A stretch of 64,000 nucleotides of DNA. Source: Kordiimonadales bacterium. GTDB lineage: Bacteria; Pseudomonadota; Alphaproteobacteria; Sphingomonadales; Kordiimonadaceae. The stretch is taken from assembly GCA_015485385.1 (NCBI GenBank), contig WFTS01000149.1, forward strand, positions 1-64,000. Reading direction: 5' to 3'. How positions within the stretch are numbered: position 1 is the stretch's first letter; each line of letters begins with the position of its first letter. The notes below the pieces were generated by a model. It had not been told where the DNA came from and ran no database searches. It saw only the letters and a program-made list of their open reading frames with translations. The translations under genes and the position numbers were made by a program. Shown piece by piece: positions 49,854-56,368 of this stretch.

Positions 49854-50516
49854 TTACGCTGCACTGGTTTTATGGGAAACAGCCTGCACGACTTCGTCCG
49901 ACAGTGGCTCGAACAAGCCTGTTTTTGGATTATATTCGGTGATCAAACCGGCCCGAATATCATAAACCCAACCATGCAAGTTCACTTTTTTCGCGCGCAA
50001 TTGCGATGCGATGAAAGGGTATGTTTGCAGGTGCATCAATTGAGAAATAACATTTTCTTCAATCAGCTTGTTTAACTGGGCATCTCCCTCCAAGTCGCCG
50101 TGATGGTCTTTCATGATATGCAGGGCCGATGAGGAATGTTTTAGCCATTCGCACACATGGGGCAGCTCGGTTAGTGATTCGGGCTCTAAAGCGCCTTTCA
50201 TGGCACCACAATCCGTGTGGCCGCAGACAATAATTTCTTCGGTCTTAAGCGCTCCTACAGCAAATTCGATGGCCGCAACCGTACCCACGTCCGAGGATCC
50301 GATGGAATAAGGCGGTACGATATTTCCCGCATTGCGCACGATGAACAGATCACCGGGTTGGGTCTGAGTGATCAGATTGGTATCGATCCGGCTGTCAGAG
50401 CATGTGATGAACAAAACTTCTGGGTTTTGTCCTTCAGATAGGCGCTCAAATAGATCGCGGTGGTTGGGGTAAATGTCTTTTTTAAAGCGTGCTACACCGT
50501 CTTTTACTTTTTTCAT
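49854..50516 (-). CDS. Beta-class carbonic anhydrase
   Basis: Zn-site motifs ITCSDSRID and CGHTDCGAMKG. Start set at ATG 50516 (MKKVKDG) preceded by GGAG; the ORF list start is 50612. Confidence 0.93.
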   Translation of the reverse strand: MKKVKDGVARFKKDIYPNHRDLFERLSEGQNPEVLFITCSDSRIDTNLITQTQPGDLFIVRNAGNIVPPYSIGSSDVGTVAAIEFAVGALKTEEIIVCGHTDCGAMKGALEPESLTELPHVCEWLKHSSSALHIMKDHHGDLEGDAQLNKLIEENVISQLMHLQTYPFIASQLRAKKVNLHGWVYDIRAGLITEYNPKTGLFEPLSDEVVQAVSHKTSAA

Positions 50517-50640
50517 CTGTCGTCTCCAGGCCATAGTAGTTTGGGGATAACCGCTGCCGTTATTATATTTGGCGGCGGGTGTTATGGGGGATATAAGACT
50601 TTCTGTGAACATAAAAACCCATTAAAAAATCATGTTTGTG

Positions 50641-50655
50641 ATAGCATTTATCTAT
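50641..50655. promoter_or_regulatory. OxyR-like half motif ATAG-N7-CTAT
   Basis: ATAGcatttatCTAT in the CA/LysR divergent intergenic region. Confidence 0.5.
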
Positions 50656-50724
50656 CATATGATGTAGGCTGAGGCCGTAATTTTTGAACCAATCCCTGTA
50701 ATATGCAAGCAAAGCAGACGTAAG

Positions 50725-51645
50725 ATGGAACCAACGCTCAAGCAGTTGAAATACCTAAAAGCCGTTGCCGATCACGGTAGCTTTCGGCGTGCCGCTGAGT
50801 TTTTGCATGTATCGCAGCCAACCTTAACCGCGCAGATCACGGTGCTGGAGGAAAAGCTAGGGCGCATGGTCTTGGAACGGTCGCGCCAAGGCGCAACGCT
50901 TACACCTATCGGGCGCTCAATGATGCCGCATATTATGGCGATTGGGCAGGAAGTTTCCGCGCTTATTCATTTGGCACAGGAAGCAGAAAGCGGCCTTTCT
51001 GGCACCTATAGGCTGGGTGTGCCCCCCACCATTGGGCCCTATTTGTTGCCCGAGGTGATCCCTGCTTTGCACAAGGCCTTTCCGGGGTTAAAAATTTTCG
51101 TTCGCGAAAAAGGGCCGCGCGATTTGGAACTTGGGCTGGTGAACGGGGATTATGATTTTATCCTGACCAGCCGCCCGATGGAAATACCCCATCTCGCAAC
51201 GGCCCCGCTTTATGTTGAACCGCTAAGCCTTGTTTGTGCGCTGGATCACGCATTTGCAAATAAGGGTGTTATTCTCCCGGTGGATTTGAAAGGTCAAAGC
51301 CTGCTCGCGATCGAAGAAAAACACCGACTGTTTGTTTTGATGCAGGCGATCGCCACCCAATATGACGCCAAACTCTTGCGCGATTATGAAGGCACCAGTT
51401 TAGATACGATTAAACATATGATCAGTACTGGGCTGGGCATTGCCTTTTTACCGGCTTTGTATGTTCGGCTTGAAATTGACCCCAGAAAAGATGTGCTTTG
51501 TGTGCCGTTTAAGGGCGATAGTTTTTCCCGAGAAATTTTGTTGGCGTGGCGGCGCGGATCCCCGCAAACGGAATTTTTTAAGAAAATAGCCAGCCTGATG
51601 CGCGAACAGTGCCACAAAAATCTGGGTGAGTTTATTGATATATAG
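50725..51645 (+). CDS. LysR family transcriptional regulator, OxyR-like
   Basis: LysR HTH (LKQLKYLKAVADHGSFRRAAEFLHVSQPTLTAQITVLEEKLG); OxyR-like LLAIEEKHRL...GTSLDTIKHMISTGLGIAFLPAL. Confidence 0.9.
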   Translation: MEPTLKQLKYLKAVADHGSFRRAAEFLHVSQPTLTAQITVLEEKLGRMVLERSRQGATLTPIGRSMMPHIMAIGQEVSALIHLAQEAESGLSGTYRLGVPPTIGPYLLPEVIPALHKAFPGLKIFVREKGPRDLELGLVNGDYDFILTSRPMEIPHLATAPLYVEPLSLVCALDHAFANKGVILPVDLKGQSLLAIEEKHRLFVLMQAIATQYDAKLLRDYEGTSLDTIKHMISTGLGIAFLPALYVRLEIDPRKDVLCVPFKGDSFSREILLAWRRGSPQTEFFKKIASLMREQCHKNLGEFIDI

Positions 51646-51731: not shown

Positions 51732-52151
51732 TCAGGCTTCGCCTTGCGTTTGCTCTAAGCCGTCAAGGATCGGGCAGCCGTCTGTGTCATTGGTGCAAAG
51801 GTTTACCAAAAGGGACAATTCGTTTTTCAAAGTGGTTACTTCGGCGATGTGTTTTTCAATTTCGCTTAATTTTGTGTGGGCTAATTGGCGCACTTGGGGC
51901 TTGGCCTTTTGCGGGTTTTCGCGGAATGAAAGTAATTCCCCAATTTCTTTCAGGCTAAACCCCATCTGCTGTGCGCGTTTTATAAACCGTAAGCGAGAGA
52001 TATCTTTTTCACTGTAGCGCCTGTTGCCGCCAGCATTTCGGTATATGCGCTTCAGCAGGCCAATTTTTTCATAATAGCGCAATGTGTCCGCTGAAAGTCC
52101 GAGCCGTTTTGTGATGTCTCCGATCGCAAACATAGAATGCCTCATATCCAT
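51732..52151 (-). CDS. MerR family transcriptional regulator
   Basis: FAIGDITKRLGLSADTLRYYEKIGLLKRIYRNAGGNRRYSEKDISRLRFI; C-terminal LCTNDTDGCPIL. Confidence 0.93.
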   Translation of the reverse strand: MDMRHSMFAIGDITKRLGLSADTLRYYEKIGLLKRIYRNAGGNRRYSEKDISRLRFIKRAQQMGFSLKEIGELLSFRENPQKAKPQVRQLAHTKLSEIEKHIAEVTTLKNELSLLVNLCTNDTDGCPILDGLEQTQGEA

Positions 52152-52819
52152 AAGAAATAGTCATTGAGCAAATAAAGGCCCACCAATATCAATGTGATCC
52201 CTCCAGCAGTTTCAAAACCTTTGCGCCATGATGCGAGGGGTTTTAATGTTTCCAGCCAGCCGATGCTATAAGCCCCGGCAAGCAAAGGCAGTGTGCGCCC
52301 GGTGGCAAAAGAGCCCATCAAAAATGCGCCGTACAAGGGCTTTGCAATGGCTGCACTTGCTGCAAGGCCAACCCAAAGTCCAGGGGAACACAAGGGGCAA
52401 ATACCCACAGTGAAAGGGATGCCTAGCAAAAAGGCTCCGCCTGCTGTGGCGACGCGCTCGCCCTTCAGTGATACCCAAGGTAGTGGCAACTTTATCCAGC
52501 CAGGCCATACGAGGCCCATTATAATCAAAAGCGGCCCGACCAGAAGGCCCCACCATGGCCCCATGATGTCTTCGGTCCACTGACCGCCTAGGGCTGCGGC
52601 TATTCCGAGAATACTATGAGTTAAGATCATCCCTAAAGCAAACGAGCCGCCAAATAGCAGGGCCTCGCGCACGGTGCGGGCTTTTGTAACATAGGCCAAG
52701 ATCATTGGTATGGTGGCAAATGACACCGGGTTGAAGCTGAATAGAAACCCCGCAATGAGCGCAGCGATCAGCCCCGCAGTGCCGCCTGCTTGCATTGAAA
52801 GGTCGGCTAATAGGATCAC
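52142..52819 (-). CDS. CcdA/DsbD-like thiol-redox membrane protein
   Basis: Six hydrophobic segments, FNPVSFATIPMIL and GICPLCSPGLW motifs; overlaps merR start. Confidence 0.75.
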   Translation of the reverse strand: MILLADLSMQAGGTAGLIAALIAGFLFSFNPVSFATIPMILAYVTKARTVREALLFGGSFALGMILTHSILGIAAALGGQWTEDIMGPWWGLLVGPLLIIMGLVWPGWIKLPLPWVSLKGERVATAGGAFLLGIPFTVGICPLCSPGLWVGLAASAAIAKPLYGAFLMGSFATGRTLPLLAGAYSIGWLETLKPLASWRKGFETAGGITLILVGLYLLNDYFLWI

Positions 52820-53160
52820 GGTTTTTGGCCTTCAAGTGGGGCGTGTGTTCTGGCCGCTTGCTCTAGTGCAGCATCCAGCGCCCGGCGCAGTTTTTTCTCT
52901 GACGGCGGACCGCCAAATGCCAGCTTGCCGCCGATCGCCACCGCTGGGGTGCTTAACACCCCGATGGCGACGGCATAATCAATTTCTTCGACCACATTCA
53001 CTTCAGCATATTCTAATGCTCCAGCCTCGTGTTCATCGACCATTCGCCGCACTAGATCTTTTGTGTGTTGGCACGCAGCGCATCCACTGGCGGTTAAGAC
53101 CTCAACCTTTAAAGGGGTCGCGGCTTTCAAAGAGGCTGGAACTTTCAAAGGGGTCGGCAC
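52816..53160 (-). CDS. Small thioredoxin-fold protein
   Basis: KVEVLTASGCAACQHTKDLV with CAAC; overlaps ccdA-like gene by 4 nt. Confidence 0.78.
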   Translation of the reverse strand: MPTPLKVPASLKAATPLKVEVLTASGCAACQHTKDLVRRMVDEHEAGALEYAEVNVVEEIDYAVAIGVLSTPAVAIGGKLAFGGPPSEKKLRRALDAALEQAARTHAPLEGQKP

Positions 53161-53172
53161 GGGATATTTCCT

Positions 53173-54123
53173 TCAGAAATTAATGCGAAATCCGGTCCTA
53201 AGCCGGGATTTATTTTCCAGCGCCGGACCATTTAAATTTTGCACCAGCGGAACTTGAAACGCCGCCTCGATAATATAGCGTTTAGAGACATATTGCAGCC
53301 CCGGAGACAGAAAAACTGTGGTGCCGCCAGACGTGTCACTTGTCACACCATTTTGTGACAAATCCCGGGTTTTTTGCGCCCATGTGACTTCTAGCACACC
53401 ATAGAGGAAACCTGGTACACCGCTTGATAGGTCGCGCGGCCACATGCGGTATTGTAGGGAGGTGTCAATTTTTGTTTCGTTACCGTAATTAAGTCCATTT
53501 TCCGTACCGTTCAGCCGGTAGCTAATTTGGCTATCCAATTGAAAATCAAATGTTTGGTAGGTTAATACCGCCCCAAAAAAGCTGTCAAAAGCGCCGTTGC
53601 TTTGCTGTATTGCTGTGGGCAGTGTCCCAAGTGTGTCACGCCTAGTGTCACGCATGATCGGCAGTTTGACGCCAGCAATTCCAGCAAGCCGGAGGGTCTG
53701 GCCTGTGCCGTCTTTTTTGTAAAACTGGTAGCGGGCAAACACTGTAGGATCATCAATCCCGGCATTGTTACGCTGTGTGTTCATGCCTGCGGGATTGAGG
53801 GTCAGCTTGCGTTTGCTATAGGGTAAGACCCCGAAAAACGCCAGTTTTGCCGAGGCTCCGTACCCGACAACCGAGATCAACCGGTCGGCTTTTAGGCTGC
53901 GGTTTTGCCCGCTTGGGTCTTTGCCGCTGCGCCCTAAAACCAATTGTTCGCGCCAGACAAACTCTCCTTTTGCGACAGGAAGTGCCGTATTAAATGTGAT
54001 AGGAGCCGCCGACGCTATATTGCTAACTATTTGATTAATAACGGCTATTATAGTTATGGTTGCTGCTTTTAAGCTGCCGGATAGCCTAGGGTTGGCCATC
54101 AGATTTTTCGCCCTTATGCCCAT
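53173..54123 (-). CDS. Outer-membrane beta-barrel (transporter-like) protein
   Basis: Secreted, alternating aromatic beta pattern ending RTGFRINF; architecture shared with the 55416 ORF. Confidence 0.6.
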   Translation of the reverse strand: MGIRAKNLMANPRLSGSLKAATITIIAVINQIVSNIASAAPITFNTALPVAKGEFVWREQLVLGRSGKDPSGQNRSLKADRLISVVGYGASAKLAFFGVLPYSKRKLTLNPAGMNTQRNNAGIDDPTVFARYQFYKKDGTGQTLRLAGIAGVKLPIMRDTRRDTLGTLPTAIQQSNGAFDSFFGAVLTYQTFDFQLDSQISYRLNGTENGLNYGNETKIDTSLQYRMWPRDLSSGVPGFLYGVLEVTWAQKTRDLSQNGVTSDTSGGTTVFLSPGLQYVSKRYIIEAAFQVPLVQNLNGPALENKSRLRTGFRINF

Positions 54124-54418
54124 GGTCCCCGCCCGTATTTTTCACGGTTTCAATGGATTTAAACGAAAAGCCCGCGTCCGCGATCGCTTGTTTAATATCC
54201 GCCTCAGGAAGGATGATGCCGTCTTGCATCTTCACAGAAACAATGCTGGATTTCAGGTCAACCTCGGCAGAGGCAACGCCTTTCATTTCCTTAACTTTTT
54301 TCTCAACGCCGTGCGCGCAAAATGGGCAGGACATGCCTTCGACCTTAACCAGATATTGGTTGCCAGCAAAGGCGGATGTGCTGAATAAAAGCAGCAGAGA
54401 AGCGACAATATATTTCAT
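54086..54418 (-). CDS. Secreted heavy-metal-associated (HMA/MerP-like) protein
   Basis: Signal peptide; VEGMSCPFCAHGVEKKVKEMKGV. Confidence 0.88.
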   Translation of the reverse strand: MKYIVASLLLLFSTSAFAGNQYLVKVEGMSCPFCAHGVEKKVKEMKGVASAEVDLKSSIVSVKMQDGIILPEADIKQAIADAGFSFKSIETVKNTGGDHGHKGEKSDGQP

Positions 54419-54433
54419 GATAAGTCCTTTTGT

Positions 54434-54796
54434 TTACTGGTATTTTTCAAACCATAACGTGATTGGTAACAAGGCATAAGCCGCGAATATTGCAATGATA
54501 AACAGCCCGGTGCTGATCTTTAAAATCAGGCTTTGCAGCCGCAACCGCTTGGCATCTTTAACGTCGCAAGCCTCAACGCGGCGCACTTGATACCAGCTGT
54601 AAGCCAGCACCAAAGCCGTTAAGCTGAAAGTGATCAGTTTATATTTTGACAGGGTCGCCAACCACGGCAGCGCAGATACTAAGGAAGCCACTGTGCTCCC
54701 CATGCCCAGCGATACCAAAGTGATTGGCAGCGCGCAGCATGTGGTGCCCAACAAGGCAAGTCCTGCTCCAGAGGCGATACTACCGTTTGTTTTCAA
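54434..54796 (-). CDS. MerT-like metal transporter
   Basis: GLALLGTTCCALPITLVSLGMG vicinal Cys in TM1; three TM segments. Confidence 0.78.
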   Translation of the reverse strand: MKTNGSIASGAGLALLGTTCCALPITLVSLGMGSTVASLVSALPWLATLSKYKLITFSLTALVLAYSWYQVRRVEACDVKDAKRLRLQSLILKISTGLFIIAIFAAYALLPITLWFEKYQ

Positions 54797-54852: not shown

Positions 54853-54883
54853 ACTCTATTACTTGGAGTATACTCCAGATCAA
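54853..54883 (-). promoter_or_regulatory. MerR-type promoter/operator upstream of merT-like gene
   Basis: Minus strand TTGATC-[TGGAGTATACTCCAAGTAA]-TAGAGT: 19-bp spacer containing the perfect palindrome TGGAGTATACTCCA. Confidence 0.7.
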
Positions 54884-54920: not shown

Positions 54921-55047
54921 GTGATCGGGACAGTGATTGCTCAAGAGACTCTGAAAAGGATTCTCCCAAGCGATTCTCTCAAGCGATTCCCTTTAGTGAT
55001 TCAAATTTGATTCTCTAGGTGATTTTCCTCCGGTGATTTTCCGGGTA
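54921..55047. repeat. Degenerate ~13-bp tandem array (GYGATTCTCTCAA-like)
   Basis: About seven degenerate units, e.g. GGATTCTCCCAA, GCGATTCTCTCAA, GCGATTCCCTTTA, GTGATTCAAATT, GTGATTTTCCTCCG, GTGATTTTCCGGG. Confidence 0.5.
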
Positions 55048-55084: not shown

Positions 55085-55393
55085 TTATTTATCGTCAGGC
55101 ACTTGTGTTTTGGTCACTGAGCGAAAACTAAAACCTGCGTCCTTAAATAAGGTCATCAATTGCCCTTGTGTGAAGGTTAGGTTTTCAGTTCCTTTGACAA
55201 GCACCAGCCCCTCAGACAGCTTGATGTCCACATGCTTAACCCCATTGATTTTCATCAATTTTTTCTCGATGCCGTACGCACAGTAAGGGCAGGCCAGTCC
55301 GTCTGCGCGGATAGTAAACAGGCTATCGTCTGCCTTGGTCGCTGGGGCTAAAAGGGTCAGTGCTAAAACCATAGCTATCAAAAATGTCCGCAT
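55085..55393 (-). CDS. Second secreted HMA/MerP-like protein
   Basis: Signal peptide; ADGLACPYCAYGIEKKLMKINGV. Confidence 0.85.
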   Translation of the reverse strand: MRTFLIAMVLALTLLAPATKADDSLFTIRADGLACPYCAYGIEKKLMKINGVKHVDIKLSEGLVLVKGTENLTFTQGQLMTLFKDAGFSFRSVTKTQVPDDK

Positions 55394-55415: not shown

Positions 55416-56303
55416 TTAAAAGTGCCATTCCAATTCCACAAGTGCTCTCATTTTAGATTTTGCCTGACTGCCGTTCAGGCGGGCAGCAACAGGGATTTGA
55501 AGTCCGGCCTTCAGGGCGAAATTGCGCAGTGTCCACATGGCCCCGGGCGAGACAAACCACCGACTTCCACCCGCATTCGCATTGCTAATGCCAAAAGTTG
55601 AGCCCGAGTTTATAATTTCCCCGTTTAGTTCCAGCATCCAAACGGTATCCAACGCGCGGTAATCATTTACCTTAGGCCGCCAGCCGCCAGCCAAATCAAC
55701 AAACAGTTGGTCCCCCCGAATACGACCACTTTGATTTTGGTTCACCTTATAGCGCACGCTGGCCCAGCGGTACCACTTCAGGCTTTCATACCCGTATGTA
55801 AGCCCAAACAGCGCATCGGTTGTGCCACTACCAAGGGAACCCGCTGTATCCAGTTTTAGCTTCACAAGTGCGGCCCATGATTGCTGCACCCCCGGTGTAT
55901 CACGCCGCCAAAAACGATATTTACTGGTAAGCGTAATATCTTCAAGCCCACCACCGCTTACACCGTCTGTACCGCTGCCCGTGGTCGCGCCCGCACCGTT
56001 CAGCGCATAAGGCAATTCAACACCAACCGCCCAGTTGGCATTGATACCATATATCAAACCTTGCCTTAAAACATCTTTGCTGCGGCCATCTTTACCCGTG
56101 CTGCGTTCATAATTGCTGTGCAGTTCAGTGCCGCCTTTGAACAAAACATGGGGTCCGGGGCTAAAGACTGGATCATGGGCCTCCACGCCAGACCCAACCA
56201 TAGCGTAAGCCAGAAGAAGGCCACTGTAGCGCACAATTAAGCGGCGAGGCCTTATAGCAGGCTTGTTGATAGGGCGGCTGGGGATCGTGCGGATAAAAAC
56301 CAT
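55416..56303 (-). CDS. Outer-membrane beta-barrel (transporter-like) protein, second copy
   Basis: Signal-like N-terminus ending in a probable cleavage site (GVEAHDP), beta-barrel pattern. ORF listed to 56357; start at 56303 or 56327 is more likely. Confidence 0.6.
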   Translation of the reverse strand: MVFIRTIPSRPINKPAIRPRRLIVRYSGLLLAYAMVGSGVEAHDPVFSPGPHVLFKGGTELHSNYERSTGKDGRSKDVLRQGLIYGINANWAVGVELPYALNGAGATTGSGTDGVSGGGLEDITLTSKYRFWRRDTPGVQQSWAALVKLKLDTAGSLGSGTTDALFGLTYGYESLKWYRWASVRYKVNQNQSGRIRGDQLFVDLAGGWRPKVNDYRALDTVWMLELNGEIINSGSTFGISNANAGGSRWFVSPGAMWTLRNFALKAGLQIPVAARLNGSQAKSKMRALVELEWHF

Positions 56304-56348
56304 AGTTTGGCACCAATTGCTATTCATGATTCGCTTTAGAGTGCCATA

Positions 56349-56368
56349 TGGAGCCAACTCCAGATCAA
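56349..56368 (-). promoter_or_regulatory. Second MerR-type operator-like site
   Basis: TGGAGCCAACTCCA followed by GATCAA (minus-strand TTGATC). Shares the 14-mer ACTCCAGATCAAGC with the 54864 site. Confidence 0.5.

Follow-up and report, generated by a model that had tools for sequence, protein, structure and literature searches.

A MerR-type operator-promoter heads a predicted metal-responsive operon in a Kordiimonadales bacterium

Results

Gene organization of the locus

The window (the whole stretch of 64,000 nucleotides that was analysed) carries two similar promoter sites, P1 and P2, each with genes placed directly behind it on the minus strand (Table 1). Downstream of P1, six genes running from the gene of a MerT-like membrane protein to merR are separated by gaps of at most ~16 nt or overlap, and the transcription unit does end in merR, as the first-pass annotation had described it. 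Since merR would be carried on a single P1 transcript, autoregulation is the simple reading. It had been taken as implied by the earlier annotation; the tight packing of the six genes and the occurrence of the same operator in front of merR-containing operons of relatives make it well supported, although it is a step that we infer. The first gene, with a probable TTG start ~50 nt past the predicted transcription start, keeps its description as merT-like on the basis of its match to PF02411, but the score stays below the Pfam gathering cut-off (27.0 vs 32.9 bits). The third mercury cysteine is, in addition, missing from the regulator (see below), so the label "mer operon" should not be assumed.

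Table 1. Positions of the two promoter sites and their genes in the window.
Feature	Positions	Strand	Description
MerR-family regulator	51732..52151	-	closes the operon; SADTLRYYEK as recognition helix; Lys84; loop C119-X6-C126
CcdA/DsbD-type membrane protein	52142..52819	-	PF02683
Thioredoxin-like protein	52816..53160	-	Thioredoxin_3, CAAC
OMP1	53173..54123	-	predicted outer-membrane protein, Phenol_MetA_deg family
HMA1	54086..54418	-	signal peptide and heavy-metal-associated domain PF00403 (CPFC); best models CopZ, below cut-off
MerT-like membrane protein	54434..54796	-	first gene after P1; PF02411, E 5e-6, 27.0 bits
P1 promoter/operator	54853..54883	-	-35 TTGATC (54883-54878), dyad TGGAGTATACTCCA (54877-54864), -10 TAGAGT (54858-54853)
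HMA2	55085..55393	-	HMA1 paralogue (CPYC), second gene after P2
OMP2	55416..56327	-	OMP1 paralogue, first gene after P2; alternative downstream ATG start near 56303
P2 promoter/operator	56338..56368	-	-35 TTGATC (56368-56363), dyad TGGAG-TTGG-CTCCA (56362-56349), -10 CACTCT (56343-56338)

Similar gene neighborhoods occur elsewhere. OMP1 homologues adjoin HMA and merR genes in other loci, and homologues of the CcdA/DsbD-type protein (~50% identical) adjoin MerR and thioredoxin genes on plasmids; in the literature no description of a MerR-thioredoxin-CcdA set was found. Searching the genome contigs with the MerT-like and OMP1 proteins gave no related loci. In a genome of the same genus (G024) and one of the same class (G032), OMP1-HMA-MerT genes were present with no dyad or merR nearby.

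Sequence of P1 and a second copy, P2

The layout proposed earlier for P1, TTGATC-N19-TAGAGT with a perfect palindrome, proved exact in its coordinates when the minus strand was re-read. The first 14 bases of the 19-nt spacer, TGGAGTATACTCCAAGTAA (54877-54859), form the perfect 14-bp palindrome, and the distance of 19 bp between the boxes lies within the 19-20 bp of MerR-activated promoters. The -10 box is weak (4/6 to TATAAT), as is customary in MerR promoters. A sigma-70 scan with 16-18-nt spacers did not detect P1, as is to be expected when the spacer measures 19 nt.

The palindrome taken by itself was rejected as significant; four perfect 14-bp palindromes were observed in the window, vs a mean of 5.6 expected from simulated windows. 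The composite pattern is of another order: TTGANN-N19/20-TANNNT, in which a dyad of seven pairs has its centre 7 or 8 bases behind the -35 box, is present once in the window and absent from all of 300 first-order simulations of it, so that the spacer dyad exceeds chance, and when relaxed to at least five dyad pairs the pattern has an expectation of 0.05. The 20-mer from the -35 box through the dyad end, TTGATCTGGAGTATACTCCA, was matched with at most three mismatches at two places on the minus strand of the window (54864-54883 and 56349-56368) and in none of 100 shuffles; no further match was found in the 2.97-Mb genome. In this genome the operator is thus limited to P1 and P2, the latter of which the earlier annotation had missed.

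P2 (TTGATCTGGAGTTGGCTCCA at 56368-56349; full form TTGATC-TGGAGTTGGCTCCATATGG-CACTCT) lies ~1.5 kb from P1 in an identical register. It sits just ahead of the OMP2-HMA2 unit, which is paralogous to OMP1-HMA1, and each of the two sites heads an OMP/HMA unit. The -10 box of P2 is poor (2/6 to TATAAT). That P2 is real is supported by the sequence TTGACC-TGGAGTTAACTCCAGGGGG-TAGGCT ahead of the OMP2 and HMA2 orthologues in G231, a genome from another family of the same class.

Conservation in relatives

G231 has the same operator in the same geometry, a spacer of 19 bp with the dyad centre 7 bp from the -35 box (19/7), followed by OMP2-HMA2-NHL-thioredoxin-MerR with MerR as the last of the five genes. 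Its MerR (helix SVDTLRYYEK) is 55% identical to the operon MerR (53% in a two-row alignment) and by far its best match. An NHL/beta-propeller lipoprotein gene adjoins the HMA gene in several relatives (L112:4532-5488, L205:1649-2623) and is missing from the P1 operon.

In family f188 (same phylum, other class; gammaproteobacterial-type), TTGACY-CTKGAGTATACTCCA-N5-TANNNT precedes merR in operons with merT, merP, OMP1 and HMA genes. These loci (L112, L111, L103, and L120; merR-merT-merP(-merA)-OMP-HMA) resemble the P1 operon in the TGGAGTATACTCCA-type operator, the Asp-type MerR and the OMP1 and HMA genes, but follow the 20/8 rule with a 20-bp spacer, have merR first and Cys79 present, and in L112 include a true MerA. 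Plasmid sets of MerR-thioredoxin-CcdA(-MerT-MerP) in Afipia, Nitrobacter, Variovorax, and Cupriavidus have the same gene partners as the P1 operon, while their MerR falls in a different clade and has CysCys as its selectivity residues, the gene order is reversed and the spacer has 20 bp; the site on the Afipia plasmid reads TTGACC-CTGGAGTATACTCCGCAGTC-TACAAT. The Afipia and Nitrobacter plasmids (L093:1077, L096:1067) also carry a second MerR-type site, TTGACC-TAGGAGGTACCTCCAAGGGT-TAGCAT, before genes for an HMA protein and a P-type ATPase. Sites of the zntA type (TTGACTCTGGAGTCGACTCCA), obtained from phylum-wide pattern searches, were not counted as relatives.

Operator type and the matching regulator

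By sequence the P1 operator is of the GGAG/CTCC type of ZntR and the "heavy metal-responsive" regulators (HMRTR) and not of the mercury GTAC type. It has their CTGGAG/CTCC half-sites together with an aspartate in the regulator helix, and reads GGAG-N4-CTCC where an Hg(II) MerR operator has GTAC-N4-GTAC, a pattern absent from the window. MerR proteins contact their operator via the recognition helix. The operon MerR has Asp22 at residue 2 of this helix, the position before Thr-x-Arg. Among 45 regulator-site pairs, drawn from loci chosen by protein similarity, hand-counted CTC half-sites accompanied 13 of 14 Asp-helix regulators and none of the 31 others (Fisher p 2e-10, a value that is no true probability because the rows are related); hand counting replaced an automatic base-by-offset operator table, which shifts odd-length dyads by one base. 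A published analysis of 776 pairs gives the same correspondence, in which Asp14 correlates with a G in position 6 of the site and a C in position 13 (PMC5045206, Table 2).

The genome, which is 93% complete, encodes five MerR homologues, and only the operon MerR has an Asp-type helix; the other four have a Glu, Gln, Arg or TipA-like helix. A separate complete merR-merT-merP-merA set lies elsewhere in this genome (L162, G000:C8:76573-79325); its MerA scores above the curated cut-off, its MerR is of the Glu type, and its operator is GTA/TAC.

Compared to P1, ZntR/HMRTR operators (consensus ACTCTGGAGTCGACTCCAGAGT, PMC1526738) are alike in the CTGGAG/CTCC half-sites, the helix Asp, the dyad between the boxes and the dyad-to-(-10) distance of 12. 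They differ in the 20-bp spacer with 8-bp phase, vs 19 and 7 here, and in Cys79 of the sensor, which is absent here. Moreover, no site of this kind autoregulates zntR, whereas merR here lies within the operon.

Proposed function of P1

We consider it very probable that 54883-54853 serves a thiophilic-metal-responsive operon as its operator-promoter and that the MerR encoded by the operon's last gene binds there; this MerR would also act on P2. The direct basis of this assignment is the sequence, its uniqueness, the gene packing, the helix-to-operator match and the conservation in relatives, from which binding, the transcription start and the metal response are predicted. When metal is absent, a MerR dimer on TGGAG-N4-CTCCA between the boxes would keep the over-long 19-bp promoter inactive. 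Metal bound to the C119/C126 loop would cause the dimer to kink and underwind the spacer, realigning the -35 and -10 boxes; the genes for the MerT-like protein, HMA1, OMP1, the thioredoxin, CcdA, and merR itself would then be switched on, which would make merR autoregulated. The same MerR at P2 (56368-56338) would allow co-expression of OMP2-HMA2. Against this explanation count the poor -10 box of P2, the 19/7 geometry vs the usual 20/8, the mer operons of f188 with MerA (L112), and the size of the regulator clade, which has two members.

Sensor residues, inducer and a possible role in mercury resistance

The operon MerR keeps two metal cysteines, C119-X6-C126, and has Lys84 at the selectivity position, where the G231 MerR has Arg. 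According to the published selectivity rule, this position is Cys in MerR, ZntR, CadR, and PbrR and Ser in copper sensors (PMC11591864). The operon MerR reached no NCBIfam equivalog cut-off: it scored 115.4 vs 147.4 bits with CueR, the best model, 104.5 vs 167.95 bits with ZntR, and 101 vs 150.85 bits with MerR. Lys84 stands at the Cys position of ZntR and in place of the first of the three cysteines of Hg(II) MerR. The loop before C-P-I recalls CueR (C119-X6-C126-P-I, where CueR has X7), and the CueR-copA/cueO system is also alike in having no Cys at position 77-79 and a 19-bp spacer with 7-bp phase; CueR is unlike the operon MerR in its half-site CCTTCC, the helix Lys instead of Asp22, and Ser77 (Lys/Arg here).

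In the tree, the operon MerR and the G231 MerR form their own long-stemmed clade of two (support 96), whose deeper placement is unsure given the few columns. We tentatively suggest, as a reading that is somewhat less likely to be right than wrong, that these two proteins are the first representatives to be seen of a two-cysteine MerR clade of its own, which has Lys/Arg at the mono-/divalent selectivity position, combines a ZntR-type operator with the 19/7 geometry of CueR promoters, and controls genes for outer-membrane, HMA and thiol-redox proteins; such a protein would be the sensor of a novel metal form.

Of the possible inducers, the soft monovalent metals Cu(I) and Ag(I) are the most likely, with about an even chance. 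This choice is favoured by a selectivity position that holds neither Cys nor Ser, by the CueR-like two-Cys loop and CopZ-like HMA proteins (best models CueR and CopZ, below cut-off), by CusB and CusA/CzcA-like genes downstream of the G231 operon, by the operon having no MerA while the genome has a separate canonical merRTPA, and by the thioredoxin and DsbD-type pair, which seems to resemble redox systems of copper tolerance like Scs (ScsC is described in PMC8900818). The Cus genes of G231 may be a separate unit from its operon. Hg(II), for which the MerT-like protein and the f188 mer operons speak, is only about half as likely, as is another ion.

The strongest alternative for P1 as a whole, although an unlikely one, is that it drives a mercury-resistance (mer) operon controlled by an Hg(II)-sensing MerR. 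A MerT-like protein is the first gene, nearly the same operator controls merR-merT-merP-merA operons in f188, and Trx-CcdA-MerT-MerP-MerR sets occur on plasmids that also bear mer or metal genes. MerR-PmerT of Tn501/Tn21 likewise shares the 19-bp spacer, the central dyad and a MerT-like first gene, but has GTAC half-sites, a three-Cys sensor, a divergent merR and MerA in the operon. The P1 operator has no GTAC and its operon no merA, the genome's own merRTPA uses another operator, the third Hg cysteine is replaced by Lys in the operon MerR and by Arg in its G231 orthologue, and the MerR model stays almost 50 bits below its cut-off; all of this argues against the mercury assignment.

Promoter geometry

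P1 had been called a textbook MerR-type promoter. The 19-bp spacer with a central dyad agrees with this description, but metal-sensor sites of the GGAG/CTCC type combine a 20-bp spacer with a distance of 8 bp between the -35 box and the dyad centre (PMC5045206; PMC1526738 for ZntR), whereas P1, P2, and the G231 site have 19 and 7, with one base fewer between TTGA and CTGGAG on the -35 side. MerR-type induction is known to change when a single base is altered (PMC1526738, PMC3431237). P1 could be a degraded or constitutive promoter which lost one base between the -35 box and the dyad and is bound but badly inducible, or leaky; in favour of this are the deviation from the 20/8 of metal relatives (PMC5045206) and the higher basal expression of MerR-type promoters from whose spacer one base has been deleted (PMC3431237). 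We regard such decay as very unlikely, because the identical shift recurs at all three sites, and by comparison of the sequences the 19/7 geometry is a kept variant. Moreover, CueR- and CadR-type promoters normally have 19 bp with phase 7, a geometry also found before other Asp-type MerR genes (L203). At the latter locus (L203:4113-4653), the Asp-type MerR has no metal loop and stands beside the site TTGACC-TAGAGTGCACTCCAGCAAT-TACGGT.

Although switches of this kind are well known, the regulator by its sequence is without the residues that mark known mercury, zinc, and copper sensors. The pair is a variant and not a new kind, as it departs from every tested subfamily in its phase and spacer length, in the Lys/Arg that takes the selectivity position and in having merR as the last gene. 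MerR metal sensors serve metal-regulon prediction and the building of biosensors. Here the helix-to-operator code is kept, while the published Ser/Cys selectivity rule and the spacing rule are broken; genome scans enforcing such rules (PMC5045206, PMC1526738) would therefore miss the pair. The Lys/Arg position would offer a direct probe of how metal selectivity is set.

Proposed assignment of P1 to the operon MerR

As merR is distal, 2.7 kb from P1, and regulators can act in trans, a different cellular regulator might bind P1 and the operon MerR act elsewhere. This seems very improbable, since one of the five MerR homologues in the 93%-complete genome, the operon's own, has the Asp-type helix, the operator and an operon-type MerR recur together in G231, and the genome holds no further such site beyond P1 and P2. 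That P1 is a functionless chance palindrome with hexamers has a negligible probability: about five 14-bp palindromes are expected per window, but the composite is missing from the 300 simulations, P2 is a second copy, and conservation in another family contradicts it. With the 19-nt spacer, the dyad, the cognate-type MerR linked to HMA and MerT-like genes, and relatives bearing the same operator, the earlier view that a MerR-type promoter/operator heads the operon of the MerT-like gene is borne out; judged by the sequence code and conservation that match regulator and operator, P1 is a genuine member of the MerR promoters.

Flanking sequences

Upstream of P1, between HMA2 and the -35 box, short degenerate repeats occur at 54959-55042, GATTCTCCCAAGC x2.4 and GGTGATTTTCC x2. 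Downstream of the operon, at 49854-51645, ORF translations point to two genes, one probably for a carbonic anhydrase and the other for a LysR-type regulator.
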